Shown: one piece after another, positions 5,880 to 52,623 of the stretch
How the letters are laid out: each line of letters starts with the position of its first letter
Numbering within the stretch: position 1 is the stretch's first letter
Assembly: GCF_020271745.1 (NCBI RefSeq)
Contig: NZ_CP084296.1
Coordinates: forward strand, 3,286,001-3,350,000
Origin: Providencia alcalifaciens
GTDB taxonomy: Bacteria; Pseudomonadota; Gammaproteobacteria; Enterobacterales; Enterobacteriaceae
Length of the DNA stretch: 64,000 nucleotides
Direction: 5' to 3'
Program-made: the position numbers and the translations under genes
Notes under the pieces: generated by a model
Database searches by the model: none
What the model was told of the DNA's origin: nothing
The model's input: only the letters and a program-made list of their open reading frames with translations

Positions 5880-6434
5880 ATGTTAGATTTCGATAAAATC
5901 CCTCAGTTAAATGATTTATGGTGTGACCTGCCTAATTTTGAAAAAAACGTGACGGCAATGGCGCATACACTTGGCTTGTCTCTGACAGATTATGTGATTG
6001 ACCATATTTCCGTGCGTTGCCATCATCAGGCAACGGCGGAGCGTTGGCATGATGGGCTATTACAATGCGCCGAGTTACTTTCTGATAACGTGATCAACGG
6101 CCGCCCAATTCGTCTTTATGACCTGAAAAATCCCATTCAAGTCGCTGGGCAAGATGTTTATATTATTGAGCTGCCTTTTCCAAAAGATAAAATCTATCCT
6201 CAAGAGAGCTGGGAACATATTGAAATGGTGATTGAGGTCGCGCCAGAATTATTGCCAGAGATAGCCCGCCGTTTATTACCGGATACCTTACCTGAAGGGT
6301 ACTCTTATAAAGTAAGTCAACCTAAAGGTCAGCAAGAAAGACTGCCAAATCCGACTTTAGCCGTGACAAACGGCTTGATTACCCTCAAATATCATCCATT
6401 TTCCCTTAGAAACATCGTTGAAAGCGAAAAATAA
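5880..6434 (+). CDS. yecM: YecM, VOC-superfamily protein
   Basis: A 184-residue cytoplasmic protein of the YecM family, whose fold is related to vicinal-oxygen-chelate isomerases/dioxygenases. Its substrate is not known to me. The family stretch DYVIDHISVRCH, with its putative metal-binding His, and the C-terminal LKYHPFSLRNIV are recognisable. It is divergent from argS and upstream of cutC, the same argS-yecM-cutC neighbourhood as in E. coli. Confidence 0.9.
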   Translation: MLDFDKIPQLNDLWCDLPNFEKNVTAMAHTLGLSLTDYVIDHISVRCHHQATAERWHDGLLQCAELLSDNVINGRPIRLYDLKNPIQVAGQDVYIIELPFPKDKIYPQESWEHIEMVIEVAPELLPEIARRLLPDTLPEGYSYKVSQPKGQQERLPNPTLAVTNGLITLKYHPFSLRNIVESEK

Positions 6435-6610
6435 GTGATGCGATTAACGTTATTGATCATTATTCAGAGTCAACTCTAAATGGTGTGATATCACGCAGAT
6501 AACATTTAACAAAAAATGGCATAGTTAGTTGAATGCCTAATAAAAAGCACGTTTTAACCCTCAATTTCAGCTCATATTCTACTGAGCTTATGACCATTTT
6601 GGAGATCTTC

Positions 6611-7372
6611 ATGGCGAAACTGGAAATTTGCTGTTTTGGTATAGAATGCGCCCAAGTTGCGCAAGAATATGGTGCAGATCGTATTGAGCTCTGTTCGGGG
6701 GCAGCAGATGGAGGGCTAACACCAAGTTACGGCTATTTAAAACGGGCGAGAGAGAAACTTCACATTCCTGTTCATCCTATTATTCGTCCACGTGGTGGCG
6801 ATTTTTGCTATAACGTGAGTGAATTTGATGTGATCCGTGAAGATTTACAGATGATCAAGGAGATGGGGTTTCCCGGCGCAGTAGTGGGGATCTTAGATAC
6901 AGAAGGGCGCATTGATATCGAACGGATGCAGACCTTAATGGAAATTGCGAATGGAATGGAAATTACTTTCCATCGTGCTTTTGATATGTGTATCAATCCA
7001 TTACTGGCATTAGAGCAACTTAAAAACCTTGGAGTGGCGCGTATTTTAACATCCGGTCAGCAGCAAAGTGCTGAATTAGGTTTGCCACTATTGAAAGAGT
7101 TACACGAAAAAAGTCGCGAAATTAATGGCCCAATCATTATGGCTGGCGCGGGAGTCCGGTTGGCGAATATAACCAAGTTTATGGAAATTGGTCTAACGGA
7201 AGTGCACAGCTCCGCAGGGAAAACCGTCCCTTCCAGTATGAATTACCGCAAAGTCGGTGTCACGATGGCATCGAACAGCGAAACCGATGAGTTCACGCAC
7301 TACTGTGTAGATGGACCAACGGTGGAAGCGATGATGGACTTTATTTCTATAACGGAAAAAGTACCTGCATAA
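6611..7372 (+). CDS. cutC: CutC family copper-homeostasis protein
   Basis: TIM-barrel protein of the CutC family. A role in copper homeostasis was originally proposed in E. coli, but its biochemical activity is still unclear. The start at [14 protein letters not shown] has a GGAG ribosome-binding site and matches the family N-terminus; the in-frame ATG 78 bp upstream gives a non-conserved leader. Conserved segments are [42 protein letters not shown] and EVHSSAGK. The 253-residue length is normal. Confidence 0.95.
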
Positions 7373-7424
7373 ATCATAAATTCAGAATAGGACTGACTGA
7401 ATTTATGATAGGGAGAGTTAAGAT

Positions 7425-7445
7425 AGGGAGGCTAAATACCTCCCT
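7425..7445. repeat. 21-bp hairpin repeat, copy 1
   Basis: A 7-bp perfect stem (AGGGAGG/CCTCCCT) with the loop CTAAATA. The whole 21 bp recurs exactly at 7587-7607. This copy is followed by GAGGTTG, so it lacks the T tract of copy 2. Confidence 0.85.
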
Positions 7446-7455
7446 GAGGTTGATG

Positions 7456-7492
7456 ACAAAGAGGGATAAAAGCGTGGTTTTTCCCTCTTTGT
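7456..7492. repeat. 11-bp-stem inverted repeat in the cutC downstream spacer
   Basis: ACAAAGAGGGA (7456-7466) pairs perfectly with TCCCTCTTTGT (7482-7492) around a 15-nt loop. It lies between the two copies of the 21-bp hairpin repeat. Confidence 0.8.
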
Positions 7493-7502
7493 GTTATCAG
7501 GC

Positions 7503-7524
7503 GAAAATCAATGAATTGATTTTC
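7503..7524. repeat. Near-perfect palindrome in the cutC downstream spacer
   Basis: GAAAATCAAT and ATTGATTTTC are exact inverted repeats separated by 2 bp. No coding sequence explains it. Confidence 0.8.
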
Positions 7525-7586
7525 CTTGTTAATTTTACAACCCCAAAAGAGCCATTTCCAAACCTGATGGGTTTGTCAATGTTCTA

Positions 7587-7613
7587 AGGGAGGCTAAATA
7601 CCTCCCTTTGTTT
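7587..7613 (+). terminator. 21-bp hairpin repeat, copy 2, with T tract
   Basis: An exact second copy of the hairpin at 7425-7445, here followed by TTGTTTTT, giving a standard intrinsic terminator on the plus strand. It ends whatever is transcribed through the 7.4-7.6 kb spacer, before the small exported-protein gene. Confidence 0.75.
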
Positions 7614-7672
7614 TTAGATTTTTGAACTGAATAAAAACTAAAAACAGCTAAATGAATTTTAAGGAAAAAATC

Positions 7673-8101
7673 ATGCTGAAAAAAATTGTATTAACGTCAT
7701 CACTTTTGCTCATCACAACTTCCTCGTTTGCGTTTTCATTAGCTGAAAAAGAGAAGCATCAAAAATATGAAACGGAAGTTTCCTCTCAAATCACGACATT
7801 AAATAAAACCTGTGGGTCCGACATTAAAGCGAATTTTGACTGGGCTACCTTTTCAAAAGAGCAACTCGAAACCATGGGTATCGATGGTTATAGTAAAGAG
7901 ATGCTTAAGGGGATAGCGAATGTCTGTGAACACTCTGAACTCGCAAAACAGTCAGTCGGTGAGAAAATCAAAAACATTACCTATTCCTATACCAAGCCTA
8001 GAGCGATTGAGTTAAAAGATGGCACGCTATCGTTAGGAATGGATTTTGATTCTGCGAATGATGCAAAAGCCGTTGAAGAGTATTTGATGAGTAATTTGTA
8101 G
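7673..8101 (+). CDS. Small exported protein of unknown function
   Basis: I do not recognise a family. The 142-residue protein starts at MLKKIVLTSS, preceded by an AAGGAA ribosome-binding site. It has a signal peptide of about 19 residues ending SSFAF/S, so it is probably periplasmic. The mature part is charged, mostly helical in look, with two cysteines (NKTCGSD and NVCEHSE) that could form a disulfide. It is flanked upstream by a duplicated hairpin and downstream by a terminator, so it appears monocistronic. Confidence 0.75.
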   Translation: MLKKIVLTSSLLLITTSSFAFSLAEKEKHQKYETEVSSQITTLNKTCGSDIKANFDWATFSKEQLETMGIDGYSKEMLKGIANVCEHSELAKQSVGEKIKNITYSYTKPRAIELKDGTLSLGMDFDSANDAKAVEEYLMSNL

Positions 8102-46016: not shown

Positions 46017-46493
46017 TGCCATTCTCAACGTGTTTTTTTCTTGTGTATTTTGTTACTCATTTCAATAAGTTTTATTCTCATCCCGCCAATATTCAATATT
46101 TATTCTTCTTTAAATAATAAAGATTATTATTTAGCACCAATCTAAAAATAACACCGATATTTAATCTTAATGGCATTATTTAATGCATTTCAATTCTGTA
46201 ATCACTCTTAAAAAATAGCCAATATAAGTAAAAATAGAACTTAAAATAACCCATTACAGCGATGATTAACATTTGTAGGGGGAGGGTTATTTTATAGTTT
46301 ATTGAAAAATAAAAAGAAAAATATCATTCTAATACAATGATTTTTAATTGAATTATAAAACCCCTATTTGTAAATAAAACTCATTCTCATAAAATCATTT
46401 CCAGTTTGTGGGCCCGCAAATACGTCCAAGAGTACCGGGTAAAAAAGCATCATCTCCTTTTTAATTTTTATTTTCAAAATAAGGAAATTGAAT
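46017..46493 (+). promoter_or_regulatory. Upstream region of the hemophore locus with possible Fur sites
   Basis: AT-rich, gene-free. A stretch at about 46376-46394 (AACTCATTCTCATAA) resembles a Fur box half (ATCATTCTCATT-type), and a weaker candidate lies at about 46322-46340. Downstream, TTTGTGGGCCCGCAAA (46405-46420) is a near-perfect palindrome that may be an operator or the start of a leader hairpin. An AAGGAAA ribosome-binding site precedes the ATG. Iron control is expected but the Fur matches are partial. Confidence 0.4.
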
Positions 46494-47246
46494 ATGAATA
46501 AAAGCACTAAATTTACATTAATTGCTATGTTGGTGGGGGTTTCTACTTGTGCGAGTGCGGTAACGGAATCTGCACAGAGTCAAACATATGAAACAGAAAG
46601 ATCAGATATAACAATAGGGGAAACTCAAGTAGCCCACGGGCCGTTTGGTGGAGAGGAAGGCTCACCTGGTGTTGGCTATCGTTATAAATCCGAAGGGAAA
46701 CGAATATCATTTTCTGGCTTAACTAAAATGATCATGTTCCCAAAAGAGGGGAATGTTTATGTTATTAACGGGACTCCACACCGTGATGTCGATATGGGTA
46801 AATTTCAATTTTCTAAGGTAGCAGATGCTGAAGTTTACTACGGTGATTGGTCACAAACTGGAAAGGAAGACGATGCTAAACATACGGCATTCTTTTCTGG
46901 TCTCGACGCTACAACGGCAGTCCCTACCGAAGGTAAAGCAACTTACACTATTGCTGGTATCAACCAATATGATGGCGAGAAACAACTCTCTGGTGTATTT
47001 GAGGCCGACTTCGGTGATAAGGATTACACCGGTTCATTACAGGGCGAAGATCTAAAAATTGCTCTTGAGGGGAAAATACAGGATGCAGGCTCATTCTCAG
47101 GTTCAGCAATTGCCAATGATACCGTAACGGGTATGAACTATGGCCGCTTCTTTGGTGAGAATGCAGAGCATGTGGCGGGGGTCGCGGTGTTTAACAGTGA
47201 CCATCAATATGATACTGCATTTGGTGGTAGTCAGAACCAAGAGTAA
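46494..47246 (+). CDS. Hemophilin-like Slam-dependent secreted hemophore
   Basis: 250 residues from ATG (MNKSTKFTLIAML). The signal peptide ends CASA/V; the Cys is preceded by V-S-T, a poor lipobox, so the protein is more likely freely secreted than lipidated. The N-terminal half has short beta strands and the VYYGDWSQ motif I associate with hemophilins. The C-terminal half is a TbpB-like 8-stranded barrel with NYGRFFGENAEHVAGVAVF and a final AFGGSQ. Adjacent genes encode a Slam, a TonB receptor and TonB, supporting heme capture. Ligand not proven. Confidence 0.8.
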   Translation: MNKSTKFTLIAMLVGVSTCASAVTESAQSQTYETERSDITIGETQVAHGPFGGEEGSPGVGYRYKSEGKRISFSGLTKMIMFPKEGNVYVINGTPHRDVDMGKFQFSKVADAEVYYGDWSQTGKEDDAKHTAFFSGLDATTAVPTEGKATYTIAGINQYDGEKQLSGVFEADFGDKDYTGSLQGEDLKIALEGKIQDAGSFSGSAIANDTVTGMNYGRFFGENAEHVAGVAVFNSDHQYDTAFGGSQNQE

Positions 47247-47273
47247 TCTTTTAATTTAGCGCTGTATATTGAT

Positions 47274-47310
47274 CAGGTAGGCAAAAGTGATTTTGCCTAC
47301 CTGTATTTTT
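47274..47310 (+). terminator. Terminator/attenuator between hemophore and Slam genes
   Basis: CAGGTAGGCAAAA/TTTTGCCTACCTG is a 13-bp perfect stem with a GTGA loop, followed by TATTTTT. It should stop most transcripts after the hemophore gene, leaving Slam, receptor and TonB expressed by read-through or a weak internal promoter. Confidence 0.9.
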
Positions 47311-47334
47311 ATGAAAAAAGAACAGGAAAGAGAA

Positions 47335-48744
47335 ATGAAAAAAATAATAAACAATATTGAGGTATTAATTCTATTATTGTTTTCTGCAAATTCATTTTCT
47401 GAACAAAATTATGGGCATCAACAATATGAACAGATAATTGAAGTTTTAACAGAAATAAATAACACAAGAAATAAATCACCCATTATAATCCCACTTAAAA
47501 TTGATAAAACTGTCGACGACCTGGGCTTTATTCTTTATGATTTAACCAATCGGCAGCGATTTGAACAAATCGATGAGTTATTACCTGATTATCTAAATGA
47601 TGAAAATCACGATAAAGGTCTGGTGGATTATATTTCCGCAGAAAGAGCTTATTTTAATGGGGATTACCCATTGTCACTTAAGTTTTACTTAAAAATAGTT
47701 AATGAAAGCCCTAACTCTATATTTTCTGAAATGAAATTGGCTCATGTCTATATAAAAAATAACTATCACTGTGAAGCATTAATTTTATATAAAGAGATAA
47801 AAGATAAATACCGAGTAAATCTATCTGAAGAGCGAATAAAACAGATAGATAATGAAATTACAGCATTAGAAAATCGCACTCATTGGCAGGGAAATTTCAA
47901 TGCTGATTTAAAATATGATACGAACTATACCGAGGCTCATGGCAATGGTGAACAGCAATGTAGTGCAATGTGGTGTATGCAAGGTAGCGAAATTAAATCC
48001 GGTTTGGTGTATGGCTTTTCAGGAAATGCCAATAAAGTCCTTTGGCAGAATCGAGGACATTCACTGTTAGCCAGCCTTGGTGGACATGTATGGGAATACC
48101 CACATCGCTCAGCAAAACGGCGCTTTTCAAGTTATTCATCAGTAAGCTATCAGTATCTTTATGGGAATAAAAAGGTCACGTTTTCACCGATTGTAGATAT
48201 TAATTGGCGAGGACATTTGTTTGACCATTACAGTGTCGGCGCGAGTATTACGGGGGCATATTCTCCTAATAATAAGCTTTATTTGCTATCCAACCTAACG
48301 TATAAAAATCAAACTTTCTTCGGAAAACGAGCATCGCGTTCAGGTTACGATATTAATTACAGTATGACAGCAATTTATTCGGTTAATCCACAATGGAGCG
48401 TATTCTCAAATTTATATGGTGGCAAAAATATTGAGCAATATAAAAGTGACAGCTATCAAGTGTCAGGGTTAACTGTGGGTTCAATCAATGTATTTGGCTC
48501 GAATAAATTAATCAATAAATTAACAAGCAGCAATCATTATTTTCTTGATTTTGACAGTGCACTTAATACAAAACGACACGATGAGTCATGGGTGTTAAAT
48601 AGCCAAATAACCCTATTAGGACACAAGTTTTTATCATTAACACCAACACTTTATGTTAATTACAAATTCAATGATAGCAGTGCAAAAATAAGCTATTCCT
48701 ATAATAAAAGCGAAGTGGGTTTAAATTTAAGTAAAACGTTTTAG
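47335..48744 (+). CDS. Slam outer-membrane translocator (surface lipoprotein assembly modulator)
   Basis: 469 residues from ATG (MKKIINNIEVLILLLF), with AGGAAAG upstream; an earlier GTG lies inside the terminator and is rejected. The signal peptide ends near NSFSE. Residues ~25-185 look like TPR helices (YISAERAYFNGDYPLSLKFY). Residues ~190-469 form a beta-barrel (DUF560) starting WQGNFNADLKYDTNYTEAH and ending LNLSKTF. Slams export TbpB-like or hemophilin cargo across the outer membrane; the likely cargo is encoded just upstream. The N-terminal half is AT-rich. Confidence 0.87.
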   Translation: MKKIINNIEVLILLLFSANSFSEQNYGHQQYEQIIEVLTEINNTRNKSPIIIPLKIDKTVDDLGFILYDLTNRQRFEQIDELLPDYLNDENHDKGLVDYISAERAYFNGDYPLSLKFYLKIVNESPNSIFSEMKLAHVYIKNNYHCEALILYKEIKDKYRVNLSEERIKQIDNEITALENRTHWQGNFNADLKYDTNYTEAHGNGEQQCSAMWCMQGSEIKSGLVYGFSGNANKVLWQNRGHSLLASLGGHVWEYPHRSAKRRFSSYSSVSYQYLYGNKKVTFSPIVDINWRGHLFDHYSVGASITGAYSPNNKLYLLSNLTYKNQTFFGKRASRSGYDINYSMTAIYSVNPQWSVFSNLYGGKNIEQYKSDSYQVSGLTVGSINVFGSNKLINKLTSSNHYFLDFDSALNTKRHDESWVLNSQITLLGHKFLSLTPTLYVNYKFNDSSAKISYSYNKSEVGLNLSKTF

Positions 48745-48762
48745 TTCGTATTGAGATTTCAT

Positions 48763-51700
48763 ATGAAAGTAACAGCAGTGGTGGCAATGCAAGTTGTCAC
48801 AGGGTTAACTATGGGTGTCATTTCACTTTCGTCTTATGCCAGCTCAAGGGAACAGGTGGGCAATATACAAGTAAAAGATAGAACAGACACTATTAAGCAA
48901 CGTGACCAAAAAGGTACGGATGACCAATATGATAAAGATGAATCCAATATTTATATAAGTAAAGAAGCGGTAGAACGTTACAAAGGAACGAATCCCGCAG
49001 ATGTTCTTAATCACGGTATTGGCGTGTATAGCGGGGATGCGCGTAATAGCGGCGCGTTAGACCCGAATGTTCGCGGTATTCAAGGGCAAGGACGTGTACC
49101 CGTCACGGTAGATGGTACAGAGCAAGCTATCACTGTGTGGCGTGGCTACAGTGGGGCTAATAACCGAAACTATATAGACCCTAATATGATCAGCAGTATT
49201 ACCGTAGTAAAAAGCCCGATGCTAGATCGTGATATTCGCACTTCAGTTGGTGGCGGCGTTGCGGTTAAAACTCTTAGTATTGATGATGTTGTGCCATTCG
49301 ATGAACGCTTCGCAATAGATATTAAATTAGAAACACGGACTAACTCAACCAAACCAAGAATTAACCAACTGCATTTAGGTACGGATTACCGTGATGATTC
49401 TCAGTTAATGGAAAGTTTTAAAAAATATAATGAAAGAATGTCATTGATGATGTTTCGAGATCCGGAAGTTTCAGTTGAGCCGGATCAACGGGGAAGTTCA
49501 AATTTTTTTAATTTAAAAGACAGTGCAATGCGAGTGGCACTAGGATTGCGCCAAGAAAAATTTAATCTACTGTTTGCCTATAGTCATCGAGATCAGGGAA
49601 ATTACTTTGCGGGACGTCATGGCGCAGGCTACTTCCGCGAACCAATGATTACTCGTAACAGTAACTATCCTCAAAAAACGGTAGACCCAAACATTCCTTT
49701 TGTTGCAAATGTGTATTTACCAACCAAAGAGGTTGGAAATACTTCCAGCAATATCGAAACTTTTCTGCAAAAAATGAATTTACAATTATCTGAATCACAA
49801 AAAATATCCCTTGGTTATGTACACACAAAAAGCCATTACGGGGAAATTATGCCTTCACAAATTCGTTTTCATGATTTGGCTGGTGAAATTCCTCAATGGC
49901 CTTTAGCCAATATTAGCTTAAGTTCTTTCTATGCAAATTATGGGTTTAAACCCAACGACCAGTCATTATTGGATTTTAAATTGAGTTATTGGCTAACAAA
50001 AACAGATTTAAATTCCAATACGGCGGGTGGTGCTCCTAGGCAACCATTAGAGGAAGATTGGACAATTGAAACTAATGGAAAAAATCCTTATATGAACGGA
50101 AAATTGGTGGATGCTATTAAATTAAATCAACTTAATGACCGACAAGGTATTTCTTTATCGAATAAATCACAGTTAACTCCTAATTTTGATATTACGTTTA
50201 TTGGTAATTTTATCCATGAAAGAATTAATAGTCATGAAGATTTATATGCGCCAAATGCAGAAATTCCTAAACGTAATGTATTTCGAGCTATTCCACGAGA
50301 AGGTAAGCGTCAAGAATACAGCGGAGCAATTAAACTGGATTGGCGTCCCACTGATTGGTTAAATGTAAATGCGGGTCTACAGTACCAAAACTATTGGTCA
50401 CGAGATTTATTAAGAGAACGTCGATTAAAAGTCAAAGACTCACGATTTGCTGTGCATCGAATTCAGAAAGCTATGAATTTCGAGTATTCGAGACCATTTA
50501 CTGAAGAGGAAGCGCGTAAAGTGAGAGAGTATGTGGACAGCAAAGGGCGTACTTTTGATGGCTACGATAAGGCTGGCAATTGGCATGACTATAGCATTGG
50601 CACTTCTAGAATTGAGTGGTTTGTCGCCGAAGCGTTATCACTCCCTGCATACTCCCTAAAAAGTGCGGAACACTATTATACAATCAAAGAAGAATATGAA
50701 GGATTTCGAATCATAGGCTTTGAGTATATTAAATGGCAAGTGGATGAAGATGGTAAGTTCACGACAGAGAATAACCCATTTTATAATGGAGAGATTGATC
50801 TCTCAGAAGAAGTGATTGACCCGATTAGCCAGAAAAAAGTAAAAGCAATCATAGCATACCGTTCCCCGCATAAAGAATCTGAATATATTTTAGTCAACGA
50901 GGACGAAAAGTATAAAAACCCCGGTAAACGTATTAATTCCGCATGGAGCCCATCGCTTGGTGGGTCAGTCTACCTCTCCGAGAATGACCGTGTTTTTGCG
51001 CGCTACGCCGAAACCGTCAGAATGCCCAGCATTTTTGAAGATACGATTGGGTTTTCAGGGGCTGGTGAGGGTTCCATAAGAACACGTCCATTTAAACCGG
51101 AACGTAGTCACACTTTTGAAATCGGTTATGTGCGTAATTTGCAAAGTTGGTTAAACGCTGAAAATGCCGCCGATTTTAGAATCAACTATTACCATAATAT
51201 TATCGACAACGCGTTTGATCGTGATGGTAATTTGGTCTTTTCACAAATGGATCAGCACCGAACTGCCGGATTAGAAGTGTTAGCTCGTTATGATAATGGG
51301 CGTTTCTTTGGGGATTTAGGAATCGATTACCGATTAAAAAATGAAGTTTGTGATAACGCCTCTATGGCACGGTTAGATCCACTCAATAAGTTCAACGCTT
51401 CAGTCTGTACAGAAGGTGGATTCCCTCAAGGTTACCTTCGCACTCAGTTGCAACCTAAGTACAGTATTCACACTAATTTGGGAATGCGCTTCTTTAATGA
51501 AAGCTTGGAAGTCGGTGGGCGTATACGCTACCACGCTAAAACAGAAAATAAAGATGAAGCTCGCATGATTCATCGATTTGGACCGTCTTATGCGCCTCTA
51601 AACAATAATCCGATGAGTTGGAATGCGGTATTTGTCACGGATGCTTATGTCGCTTATCAAGTGAATAAGAACCTGTTAGTGGAATTGTTGGCCTCTAACA

Positions 51701-51792
51701 TATTAAACGAATATTACATTGACCCGCTGACACGTAGCATGATGCCAGCACCGGGGAGATCCCTTCGTTTAAGTGTGACTAGTCACTTCTAA
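48763..51792 (+). CDS. TonB-dependent outer-membrane heme/hemophore receptor
   Basis: 1009 residues from ATG 48763; a TTG 12 bp upstream is in frame. The signal peptide ends near YASS. The plug domain (about 55-185) has SKEAVERYKGTNPADVLNHG, VRGIQGQGRVPVTVDG and SSITVVKSPM. The large 22-stranded barrel carries long loops and ends LRLSVTSHF, with aromatic terminal Phe. Large receptors next to Slam hemophores (HphR-type) take heme from the hemophore. It starts 18 bp after the Slam stop. Confidence 0.9.
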   Translation: MKVTAVVAMQVVTGLTMGVISLSSYASSREQVGNIQVKDRTDTIKQRDQKGTDDQYDKDESNIYISKEAVERYKGTNPADVLNHGIGVYSGDARNSGALDPNVRGIQGQGRVPVTVDGTEQAITVWRGYSGANNRNYIDPNMISSITVVKSPMLDRDIRTSVGGGVAVKTLSIDDVVPFDERFAIDIKLETRTNSTKPRINQLHLGTDYRDDSQLMESFKKYNERMSLMMFRDPEVSVEPDQRGSSNFFNLKDSAMRVALGLRQEKFNLLFAYSHRDQGNYFAGRHGAGYFREPMITRNSNYPQKTVDPNIPFVANVYLPTKEVGNTSSNIETFLQKMNLQLSESQKISLGYVHTKSHYGEIMPSQIRFHDLAGEIPQWPLANISLSSFYANYGFKPNDQSLLDFKLSYWLTKTDLNSNTAGGAPRQPLEEDWTIETNGKNPYMNGKLVDAIKLNQLNDRQGISLSNKSQLTPNFDITFIGNFIHERINSHEDLYAPNAEIPKRNVFRAIPREGKRQEYSGAIKLDWRPTDWLNVNAGLQYQNYWSRDLLRERRLKVKDSRFAVHRIQKAMNFEYSRPFTEEEARKVREYVDSKGRTFDGYDKAGNWHDYSIGTSRIEWFVAEALSLPAYSLKSAEHYYTIKEEYEGFRIIGFEYIKWQVDEDGKFTTENNPFYNGEIDLSEEVIDPISQKKVKAIIAYRSPHKESEYILVNEDEKYKNPGKRINSAWSPSLGGSVYLSENDRVFARYAETVRMPSIFEDTIGFSGAGEGSIRTRPFKPERSHTFEIGYVRNLQSWLNAENAADFRINYYHNIIDNAFDRDGNLVFSQMDQHRTAGLEVLARYDNGRFFGDLGIDYRLKNEVCDNASMARLDPLNKFNASVCTEGGFPQGYLRTQLQPKYSIHTNLGMRFFNESLEVGGRIRYHAKTENKDEARMIHRFGPSYAPLNNNPMSWNAVFVTDAYVAYQVNKNLLVELLASNILNEYYIDPLTRSMMPAPGRSLRLSVTSHF

Positions 51793-51799
51793 GGCTCAG

Positions 51800-51825
51800 C
51801 CCCAGCAAAGCAATTTTTGCTGGGG
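51800..51825 (+). repeat. Hairpin between the receptor and tonB-like gene
   Basis: CCCCAGCAAA/TTTGCTGGGG, a 10-bp perfect stem with a 6-nt loop, lies 8 bp after the receptor stop and 19 bp before the tonB ATG. There is no T tract, so it is probably a stability or attenuation element. Confidence 0.75.
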
Positions 51826-51843
51826 TTGATTAGGAATATCGCC

Positions 51844-52623
51844 ATGAATTATTTTCGAATTTATTATGGGTTACCGCTTTCCGGCTTATTACACTGCGCC
51901 ATCATTTATTTTTGTTTTTTTGCATTCAATTCATTGTCATTCAAAATGACAGCACCGTTAATTTCACCAGTGGTGACCGTCGCGTTAACCCAGTTTTTAG
52001 TTGAGCAACAAGTGAGCATTCCCCAAGAAACCGAATCAGTAGTTGGAGGTGAGCTAAATGCCATAGAGGAGTTTGAATACGCGAATATCAAAGTGAGTAA
52101 GCAGCGTAGTCATCAAAACAATGCAGCAAATACAGTCGCTGAAAAAACACTTAAAGAAGTGAAATCTGAAAAGCGTAATCCTGTAAAAAACAAAGCTAAA
52201 TCAGAAGAAAAAGCCAAGAAAGAAAGCTCTCGGGATGATTTGCAAACCCAAAGAGCAAAAGAAGGAGAAAGCAAAGTAAATTCCTTAGCTGCAGGGCAGC
52301 AAGGAGATCTCTCTCATTTTTCTGATGGCGAAAATAACACCAATACCAAACAGCGTTATCTAGACCAGATCAAACGGGAAATTGATAGCCATAAACAGTA
52401 TCCGCGACGAGCACGCAAAATGCGTATGCAAGGTGATATTCAAGTTCAGTTTGATGTCACAGAGAAAGGCGAGTTGGTCAATGTGAAAGTGGTGGATTCA
52501 GAAAAAAGCCAGTTTTTCGAACAAGCGATATTGGATGCGATTAAGCGTTGCAAGCCACTCGGTAAGCCACCTGAAAATATGAACAGAAAAATGATATTAA
52601 AAATCAATTTCAAATTAGACTGA
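51844..52623 (+). CDS. TonB-like energy transducer dedicated to the hemophore locus
   Basis: 259 residues from ATG (MNYFRIYYGLPLSGLLHC) with AGGA upstream. A single N-terminal membrane helix (about 9-30) is followed by a periplasmic linker (~80-165) rich in Lys, Glu and Ser rather than the Pro-Glu/Pro-Lys repeats of chromosomal TonB. A standard C-terminal TonB domain (~170-259) has QYPRRARKMRMQGDIQVQF. It should energise the adjacent receptor through ExbB/ExbD encoded elsewhere. Confidence 0.88.
   Translation: MNYFRIYYGLPLSGLLHCAIIYFCFFAFNSLSFKMTAPLISPVVTVALTQFLVEQQVSIPQETESVVGGELNAIEEFEYANIKVSKQRSHQNNAANTVAEKTLKEVKSEKRNPVKNKAKSEEKAKKESSRDDLQTQRAKEGESKVNSLAAGQQGDLSHFSDGENNTNTKQRYLDQIKREIDSHKQYPRRARKMRMQGDIQVQFDVTEKGELVNVKVVDSEKSQFFEQAILDAIKRCKPLGKPPENMNRKMILKINFKLD

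Follow-up and report, generated by a model that had tools for sequence, protein, structure and literature searches.

A hemophilin-type locus with Slam, receptor and TonB genes in Providencia alcalifaciens, and discordant tracts in its hemophore and receptor genes

A four-gene hemophilin locus between rnd and minE

We analysed a 64,000-nucleotide stretch of Providencia alcalifaciens (contig NZ_CP084296.1, positions 3,286,001 to 3,350,000 of the forward strand; hereafter the window) and found four intact same-strand genes, arranged head to tail at 46494–52623 between rnd and minE. They encode a hemophilin-like hemophore (the cargo), a Slam translocator of the type 11 secretion system (T11SS), a TonB-dependent receptor and a TonB. 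With a probability of about nine in ten, we have here the hrp/hemophilin locus in its Providencia form, a self-contained heme-scavenging system. It belongs to a kind of four-gene system that has already been described, to which it adds one more species. Unusual here is an apparent exchange of the heme-binding part of the hemophore and of part of the receptor, with the remainder of the locus retained.

The heme-scavenging reading draws on four family matches, a lone Slam gene adjoining the gene of a lone TbpB-fold protein, gene order, the literature on homologues, HemS and hmu-like genes elsewhere in the genome, and a hairpin. The sequence itself shows to which families the proteins belong, how the genes are ordered, and that a HemS gene, the hairpin and the discordant tracts are present.

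Family assignment of the four gene products

The cargo (46494–47246, 250 amino acids; this and all window features below are on the + strand) contained both domains of the HphA/hemophilin family, the heme-binding domain HphA_N (3.3e-20) and the barrel domain HphA_C (2.1e-18), each above the Pfam cut-off, along with TbpB_B_D (3.1e-8). It also matched NCBIfam NF041636 over the cut-off and six solved sequences, which are named hemophilin, haemophore or, in the case of 9us7, TbpB-like solute binding protein (best 3.8e-35).

The next gene (47335–48744) encodes a 469-residue protein with an N-terminal TPR domain. A DUF560/Slam profile had been proposed as the check on this protein, and PF04575 (SlipAM/DUF560) was found at 1.1e-12 and TPR_Slam (PF24575) at 1.5e-8, both over the cut-off. 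In the whole genome, a single contig of 4.2 Mb, it was the one SlipAM protein found, and the cargo, whose gene adjoins it, was the one TbpB_B_D protein. By analogy with homologues, this Slam would move the TbpB-barrel cargo over the outer membrane.

The HphR/HrpA-like receptor (48763–51792, 1009 amino acids) consists of a plug (2.8e-11) and a barrel (4.4e-22), and its solved relatives are 9oaa, HasR and PhuR. A plug motif at residues 125–140, RGY(N/S)GANNRNY(I/V)DP, was kept in all 29 aligned receptors. Its first Tyr aligns with H189 of HasR, which we take to be a heme ligand. The last gene (51844–52623) encodes a 259-residue TonB with a TonB_C domain (1.4e-15); genome-wide, four TonB_C proteins were found, this one included. 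Thus cargo, translocator, receptor and TonB, the parts that make up an hrp locus, are all present in a single locus, as the preliminary description had proposed from the letters and open reading frames.

The same description saw no heme oxygenase gene in the cluster and supposed that heme processing would depend on genes elsewhere. Both points agree with our search: no heme oxygenase was found in the cluster or in the genome, and a HemS protein, with two domains over the cut-off, is encoded away from the locus. Its gene lies within what reads as an hmuRSTUV-like locus (G000:C1, about 69.3–75.0 kb), in which the four genes besides HemS were named by eye from their translations rather than by family search.

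The cargo as a secreted protein or a surface lipoprotein

The name attached to NF041636, Slam-dependent surface lipoprotein, raises the alternative that the cargo is a surface-anchored co-receptor like TbpB. Apart from the match itself, a Cys in the signal sequence, present in the window and in four other loci of Providencia group A (the Providencia loci were compared in groups A to D), speaks for it. However, the residue before this Cys is Thr in the window, and the Cys is missing in L041 (also P. alcalifaciens), in L045 and in the aligned group B loci. Pfam found a single HphA clamp-barrel with no second lobe. In addition, 97.8% of T11SS subcluster 1B cargo is reported to be of the signal peptidase I type (PMC8406197), the window Slam being only presumptively a member of 1B. 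Since the Cys follows Thr and is not conserved in relatives, a soluble secreted cargo is likelier than a lipoprotein, and the signal sequence is probably of the signal peptidase I type. A TbpB-type surface lipoprotein, with its conserved lipobox Cys and two barrel lobes, was rejected on both features, and the lipoprotein alternative is very improbable. The NCBIfam name is probably a misnomer for the soluble-type cargo of 46494–47246.

Comparison with known systems

The hrp locus of Xenorhabdus nematophila (HrpC hemophilin, HrpB T11SS, HrpA receptor and TonB) has the same four kinds of genes (PMC8406197). All 29 Xenorhabdus loci and all 11 Photorhabdus loci that were read have the order cargo-Slam-receptor-TonB; the set excludes further Xenorhabdus paralogues and the Photorhabdus genome G465. 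Here the genus of G035 is taken as Xenorhabdus, and that of G278, by inference alone, as Photorhabdus. Against the Xenorhabdus locus L058 the window cargo is 43%, the receptor 44% and the Slam 20% identical, and unlike the Xenorhabdus hemophilins the window cargo has lost the loop-1 His. The hemO cluster of Acinetobacter baumannii shares the four envelope parts, and it is HphA domains that Pfam recognised in the cargo. Its order, hphR-hphA-hsmA-TonB-related-haem oxygenase (PMC10483418), differs in placing the receptor first and in including a heme oxygenase. The gene order had been likened to both Xenorhabdus and Acinetobacter; the former likeness stands, with its 29 loci, and the latter does not.

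The view that a version in an enteric relative is notable did not survive comparison with the literature. The Xenorhabdus locus was already described, HrpB of X. nematophila increased the HrpC in E. coli supernatants by a factor of 9.9 to 17, and homologues from P. rettgeri and Proteus mirabilis were named in print in 2021 (PMC8406197). In A. baumannii, HphR, HphA and HsmA together with the TonB-related protein enable hemoglobin use by E. coli (PMC8560813).

The HasA/HasR system likewise joins a secreted hemophore to a dedicated TonB-dependent receptor, HasR being a solved relative of the window receptor. However, the cargo had no HasA family match among Pfam results up to E 1, and the position of HasR H189 is Tyr in the window receptor. 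The secretion route of HasA also differs from the Slam route. Hemophilin of Haemophilus haemolyticus (Hpl, 6om5) is of the same family as the cargo (phmmer 3e-25) and coordinates heme through a single His (PMC8560813).

From these homologues, secretion, heme binding and delivery to the receptor would proceed as follows. The hemophore would be exported by Sec and cleaved by signal peptidase I; Slam would recognise its C-terminal barrel and pass it through the outer membrane. Outside, it would take heme, probably from hemoglobin, and the loaded hemophore would dock on the 1009-residue receptor, with heme import energised by the adjacent TonB. The imported heme would be handed on to HemS by way of the HmuTUV-like transporter, both encoded outside the locus. 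If the hemophore gene were followed by a leaky terminator, many hemophores would be made per Slam.

A recurrent terminator-like hairpin between the hemophore and Slam genes

The gap between hemophore and Slam genes holds an intrinsic-terminator-like hairpin at 47274–47303, with a 13 bp stem and a T-rich tail (fold z −4.2 against dinucleotide shuffles). Its stem is the longest in a scan of the window, 13 pairs against 8 for the next, whereas terminator-like sites overall (7) were not above shuffles (mean 4.8, sd 2.0). With a terminator defined by a stem of at least 8 pairs and at least 5 T in the 10 bases at its end, a hairpin at this place was found in 52 of 69 loci, compared with 38 of 3450 mononucleotide shuffles. 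By group, the counts were 7/7 in Providencia A (shuffles 2/350), 8/10 in B (0/500), 23/29 in Xenorhabdus (24/1450) and 11/11 in Photorhabdus (9/550); shuffles of groups C and D gave 3/200 and 0/400. Among the hairpins compared, the sequence varies from genus to genus although the place stays constant.

If this were a partial (leaky) terminator, it would yield more hemophore than Slam. In clostridial ABC importers, internal terminators raise the extracellular binding protein over its translocator (PMC9045158). The word "terminator" is absent from the main text, supplements aside, of PMC8406197, PMC12282271 and PMC8560813. A second hairpin, in the gap between receptor and TonB genes (51796–51829), folds without a T run and was rejected as a terminator: the same definition holds there in 0/7 (group A), 4/10, 0/4 and 0/1 Providencia loci and in 1/29 Xenorhabdus loci.

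Displaced heme ligands and other evidence against heme scavenging

Several observations weigh against heme scavenging by this locus. HphA binds heme via H43 and H106 (PMC8560813), which in our alignment to 7re4 correspond to chain residues H33 and H96; by our own count, both are shifted by ten. In the window cargo, neither column holds an axial His: that of H43 is F51 (46644–46646), with a His three residues earlier (H48, 46635–46637), and the nearest candidate for the second ligand, H96 (46779–46781), stands five residues ahead of Met-Gly, where three or four would be usual. Heme binding is thus not assured, as both ligand histidines are displaced. Furthermore, the best NCBIfam model of the receptor, TIGR01785 (the heme/hemoglobin receptor subfamily; 1.2e-55), fell below its cut-off. 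Structure models of the cargo, from three sequences, reached a mean pLDDT of 28, so that the hemophilin match is one by sequence. The hemophore/Slam hairpin was found in only 2/4 loci of Providencia group C and 1/8 of group D. Finally, the hemophore gene is preceded by a degenerate site resembling a Fur box (46370–46388), with 6 mismatches in 19 to a Fur-box consensus; 22% of shuffles match at least as well. In L054, L055, L070 and L056, Fur-like sites with 3 mismatches occur at a similar distance, a level reached by 0/200 shuffles each.

We compared the ligand positions in 68 hemophilins: 28 from Providencia loci (without L058, which was assigned to Xenorhabdus), 29 from Xenorhabdus and 11 from Photorhabdus. 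The loop-1 His is present in 66 of them and missing in the window and L043. In 64 a loop-2 His precedes the Met-Gly position by three or four residues; in the window, L040 and L041 the distance is five, and L044 has no such His. The window protein is the only one of the 68 that departs at both positions. The count leaves aside L072, L073 and two paralogues, L052b, without the loop-1 His, and L071, without both.

The preliminary description had allowed for a cargo ligand other than heme, and this possibility gains some weight from the displaced histidines. In such a case Slam would export a cargo with changed ligand residues for another metalloporphyrin, a metal or a host protein; T11SS cargo is reported to include a cobalt receptor protein, CrpC (PMC12282271). 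However, H48 lies three residues before the lost His and H96 near the second position, so coordination may merely be shifted. Two axial histidines are not a strict family feature, since the H. haemolyticus hemophilin uses one (PMC8560813). The best family of the receptor, albeit below cut-off, is the heme/hemoglobin subfamily. We regard a non-heme ligand as unlikely, and heme scavenging remains the preferred reading.

Two discordant tracts in the hemophore and receptor genes

The closest relative of the window in both Slam (95% amino-acid identity) and TonB (95%) is locus L042 of genome G009. In 30-residue segments starting at hemophore residues 31–81, the DNA of the two is just 49–63% identical, and across receptor segments at about 190–575 identity falls to 58%, with interspersed segments at 82–94%. 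In these same divergent segments of hemophore and receptor, L042 is 82–98% identical to L045 of P. rustigianii.

Informative sites, counted with L040 as outgroup, delimited two tracts. At 46610–46812 (about residues 39–107, most of the heme-binding N domain), 39 of 42 sites join L042 with L045, compared with 3 of 16 in the rest of the hemophore gene. At 49366–50467 (about residues 202–569, the first half of the barrel), 76 of 88 do so, compared with 13 of 86 in the rest of the receptor gene. Between the tracts, at 47247–49302, sites favour the window with L042 by 75 to 7. In each of the two genes the contrast reached the smallest permutation p that could be obtained, 0.002, as it also did with L041, L043 or L044 as outgroup. 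Trees of both tracts placed L042 with L045 at a support of 100. By approximately unbiased (AU) tests, the grouping of the window with L042 was rejected by the hemophore tract (2.5e-82) and the receptor tract (5.9e-5), and that of L042 with L045 was rejected by the Slam gene (2.3e-4). The hemophore C domain, plug, C-terminal half of the barrel and TonB favoured the window with L042 without rejecting the alternative (p 0.055 to 0.17), and rnd slightly favoured L042 with L045. As history in one lineage, it is well supported by these sequence patterns that the two tracts share one history and the 2.5 kb between them another.

The window lineage is the likelier recipient, because the L042–L045 distance in the tracts is about that in Slam, while the window is far from all. 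The tract donor would lie outside the sampled genomes. Both ligand changes described above fall inside the exchanged hemophore tract.

Matched exchange or independent recombination

We propose, at somewhat less than even odds, that the hemophore had its heme-binding face, and the receptor barrel its first half, jointly replaced from an unsampled donor as a private matched pair. The export barrel, Slam, plug and TonB would have stayed unchanged, and the new face would coordinate heme with shifted histidines. That the exchanged tracts recognise each other is our hypothesis. The competing explanation is that two fast-changing surface proteins recombined independently and form no matched pair. By our reckoning, two discordant tracts would agree by chance with a probability of 1/2 (within a quartet) to about 1/6 (any partner), and the clear event is a single one. 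What independent recombination has to accommodate is that both tracts give L042 with L045 and reject the window with L042, whereas the intervening Slam gene rejects L042 with L045.

Distances were compared by partial Mantel tests between the hemophore N domain and receptor residues 190–580, controlling for Slam, plug and C-barrel. The receptor region was chosen after inspecting group A, so the other groups are independent tests. The correlation was 0.80 in group A (p 0.041, n 7), 0.70 in group B (p 0.0015, n 9) and 0.45 in group D (p 0.097, n 8). The hemophore C domain, used as control, gave −0.22 (p 0.86), 0.35 (p 0.063) and 0.35 (p 0.12), respectively. The values in A and B argue against independent recombination; the p values are uncorrected over the five groups tested, and only that of B would survive Bonferroni correction. 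With regions fixed beforehand, Xenorhabdus gave r 0.10 (p 0.098, n 29), the receptor C-barrel being just as high (0.11, p 0.11), and Photorhabdus gave 0.31 (p 0.027, n 11), which fell to 0.16 (p 0.13) with more controls. Both results are on the side of independent recombination.

On the same side stands that topology tests in groups B and D gave no resolution. Among group A quartets in which N domain and Slam disagree (35 quartets in all, 10 unresolved), the receptor follows the N domain in 8 and Slam in 3, but in group B (126, 31 unresolved) the counts are 4 and 4, and group D (70, 35 unresolved) has none. The receptor alone differed in 3 more quartets of A and 1 of B. With the hemophore C domain as control, 5 quartets of group A followed the N domain, 2 went with Slam and 2 took the third topology, against 2, 4 and 4 in group B, so quartets by themselves are weak evidence.

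Tested as a general rule, paired exchange has support from distances in Providencia group B, whereas distances are not significant in group D, Xenorhabdus or, with full controls, Photorhabdus. Matched exchange rests on one clear event and was not significantly replicated in Xenorhabdus. We judge the chance of independent recombination to be somewhat under one half.

Some loci were handled separately. L061, whose receptor and rnd genes are broken and whose hemophore has both histidines, entered neither the distance and tree tests nor the ligand count. L053, with a broken Slam gene, was left out of the Slam comparisons, and the four loci of group C out of the distance and tree tests. L059 is the contig of L041 and L060 that of L045, and each was counted once.

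Distribution of the locus

Of 60 genomes, the source genome counted, 26 yielded a hemophilin, including 22 of 24 Providencia genomes (none in G002 or G014); the receptor search likewise gave 22 of 24. The four-gene cassette occupies the rnd-minE site in 17 of the 24, a count that includes G020, whose contig shows the minE side only, with the rnd side off the contig, and G012, whose receptor and rnd genes are broken. In the remaining seven, the interval lacks the cassette. The rnd-minE gap is short in six other genera of the family (about 76–178 bp), and the simplest account is therefore that the Providencia lineage acquired the cassette at this site. In a wider sample, HphA_C was found in 26 of 392 genomes of the family, 25 of them over the cut-off and five of them Providencia, and it was present in 29 of 30 Xenorhabdus and 12 of 12 Photorhabdus genomes.

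In G005, an 81-residue TonB-like N-terminal remnant lies between rnd and minE (L074, 2874–3119), likely the scar of a lost cassette; the hemophilin-Slam-receptor locus of this genome sits elsewhere (L057), with no TonB match in the stretch read. Such loci at another place, with no adjacent TonB match, were seen in seven Providencia genomes (L064–L069 and L057), and in six of them this is a second locus. L052 carries a tandem pair of hemophilin genes before one Slam gene (6096–7978), the upstream copy being without the loop-1 His.

Compared with six group B loci at this chromosomal site, the window shows identities of 28–36% in Slam and TonB, 59–60% in the receptor and 50–56% in the cargo. Inside group A, however, conservation of Slam is about equal to that of the receptor. 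We considered a replacement of Slam from another family, given that Slam is 28–34% identical to the six group B loci where the receptor is 59–60%, and rejected it; the nearest relatives by Slam are unchanged, which a long branch explains more simply.

Implications

In the passages of PMC8406197, PMC8560813 and PMC12282271, no docking site between hemophore and receptor is described. If the paired exchange is real, hemophore residues of about 39–107 and receptor residues of about 202–569 would be the parts that recognise each other. Among the papers listed in our searches, none concerned exchanged hemophore-receptor modules by its title or the opening of its abstract; the nearest deals with how the hemoglobin receptor HmbR varies (PMC3068627), and the 2024 work on hemophilin diversification (PMC11332152) may cover parts of the subject. 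Because both known ligand positions are displaced in it, the window protein lends itself to testing what the family needs for heme coordination. The paired exchange would likewise allow one to test directly whether matched types keep secreted hemophores private. Were it true, hemophore systems would carry exchangeable matched recognition modules, like siderophore-receptor pairs, and neighbours would be kept from using a secreted hemophore.

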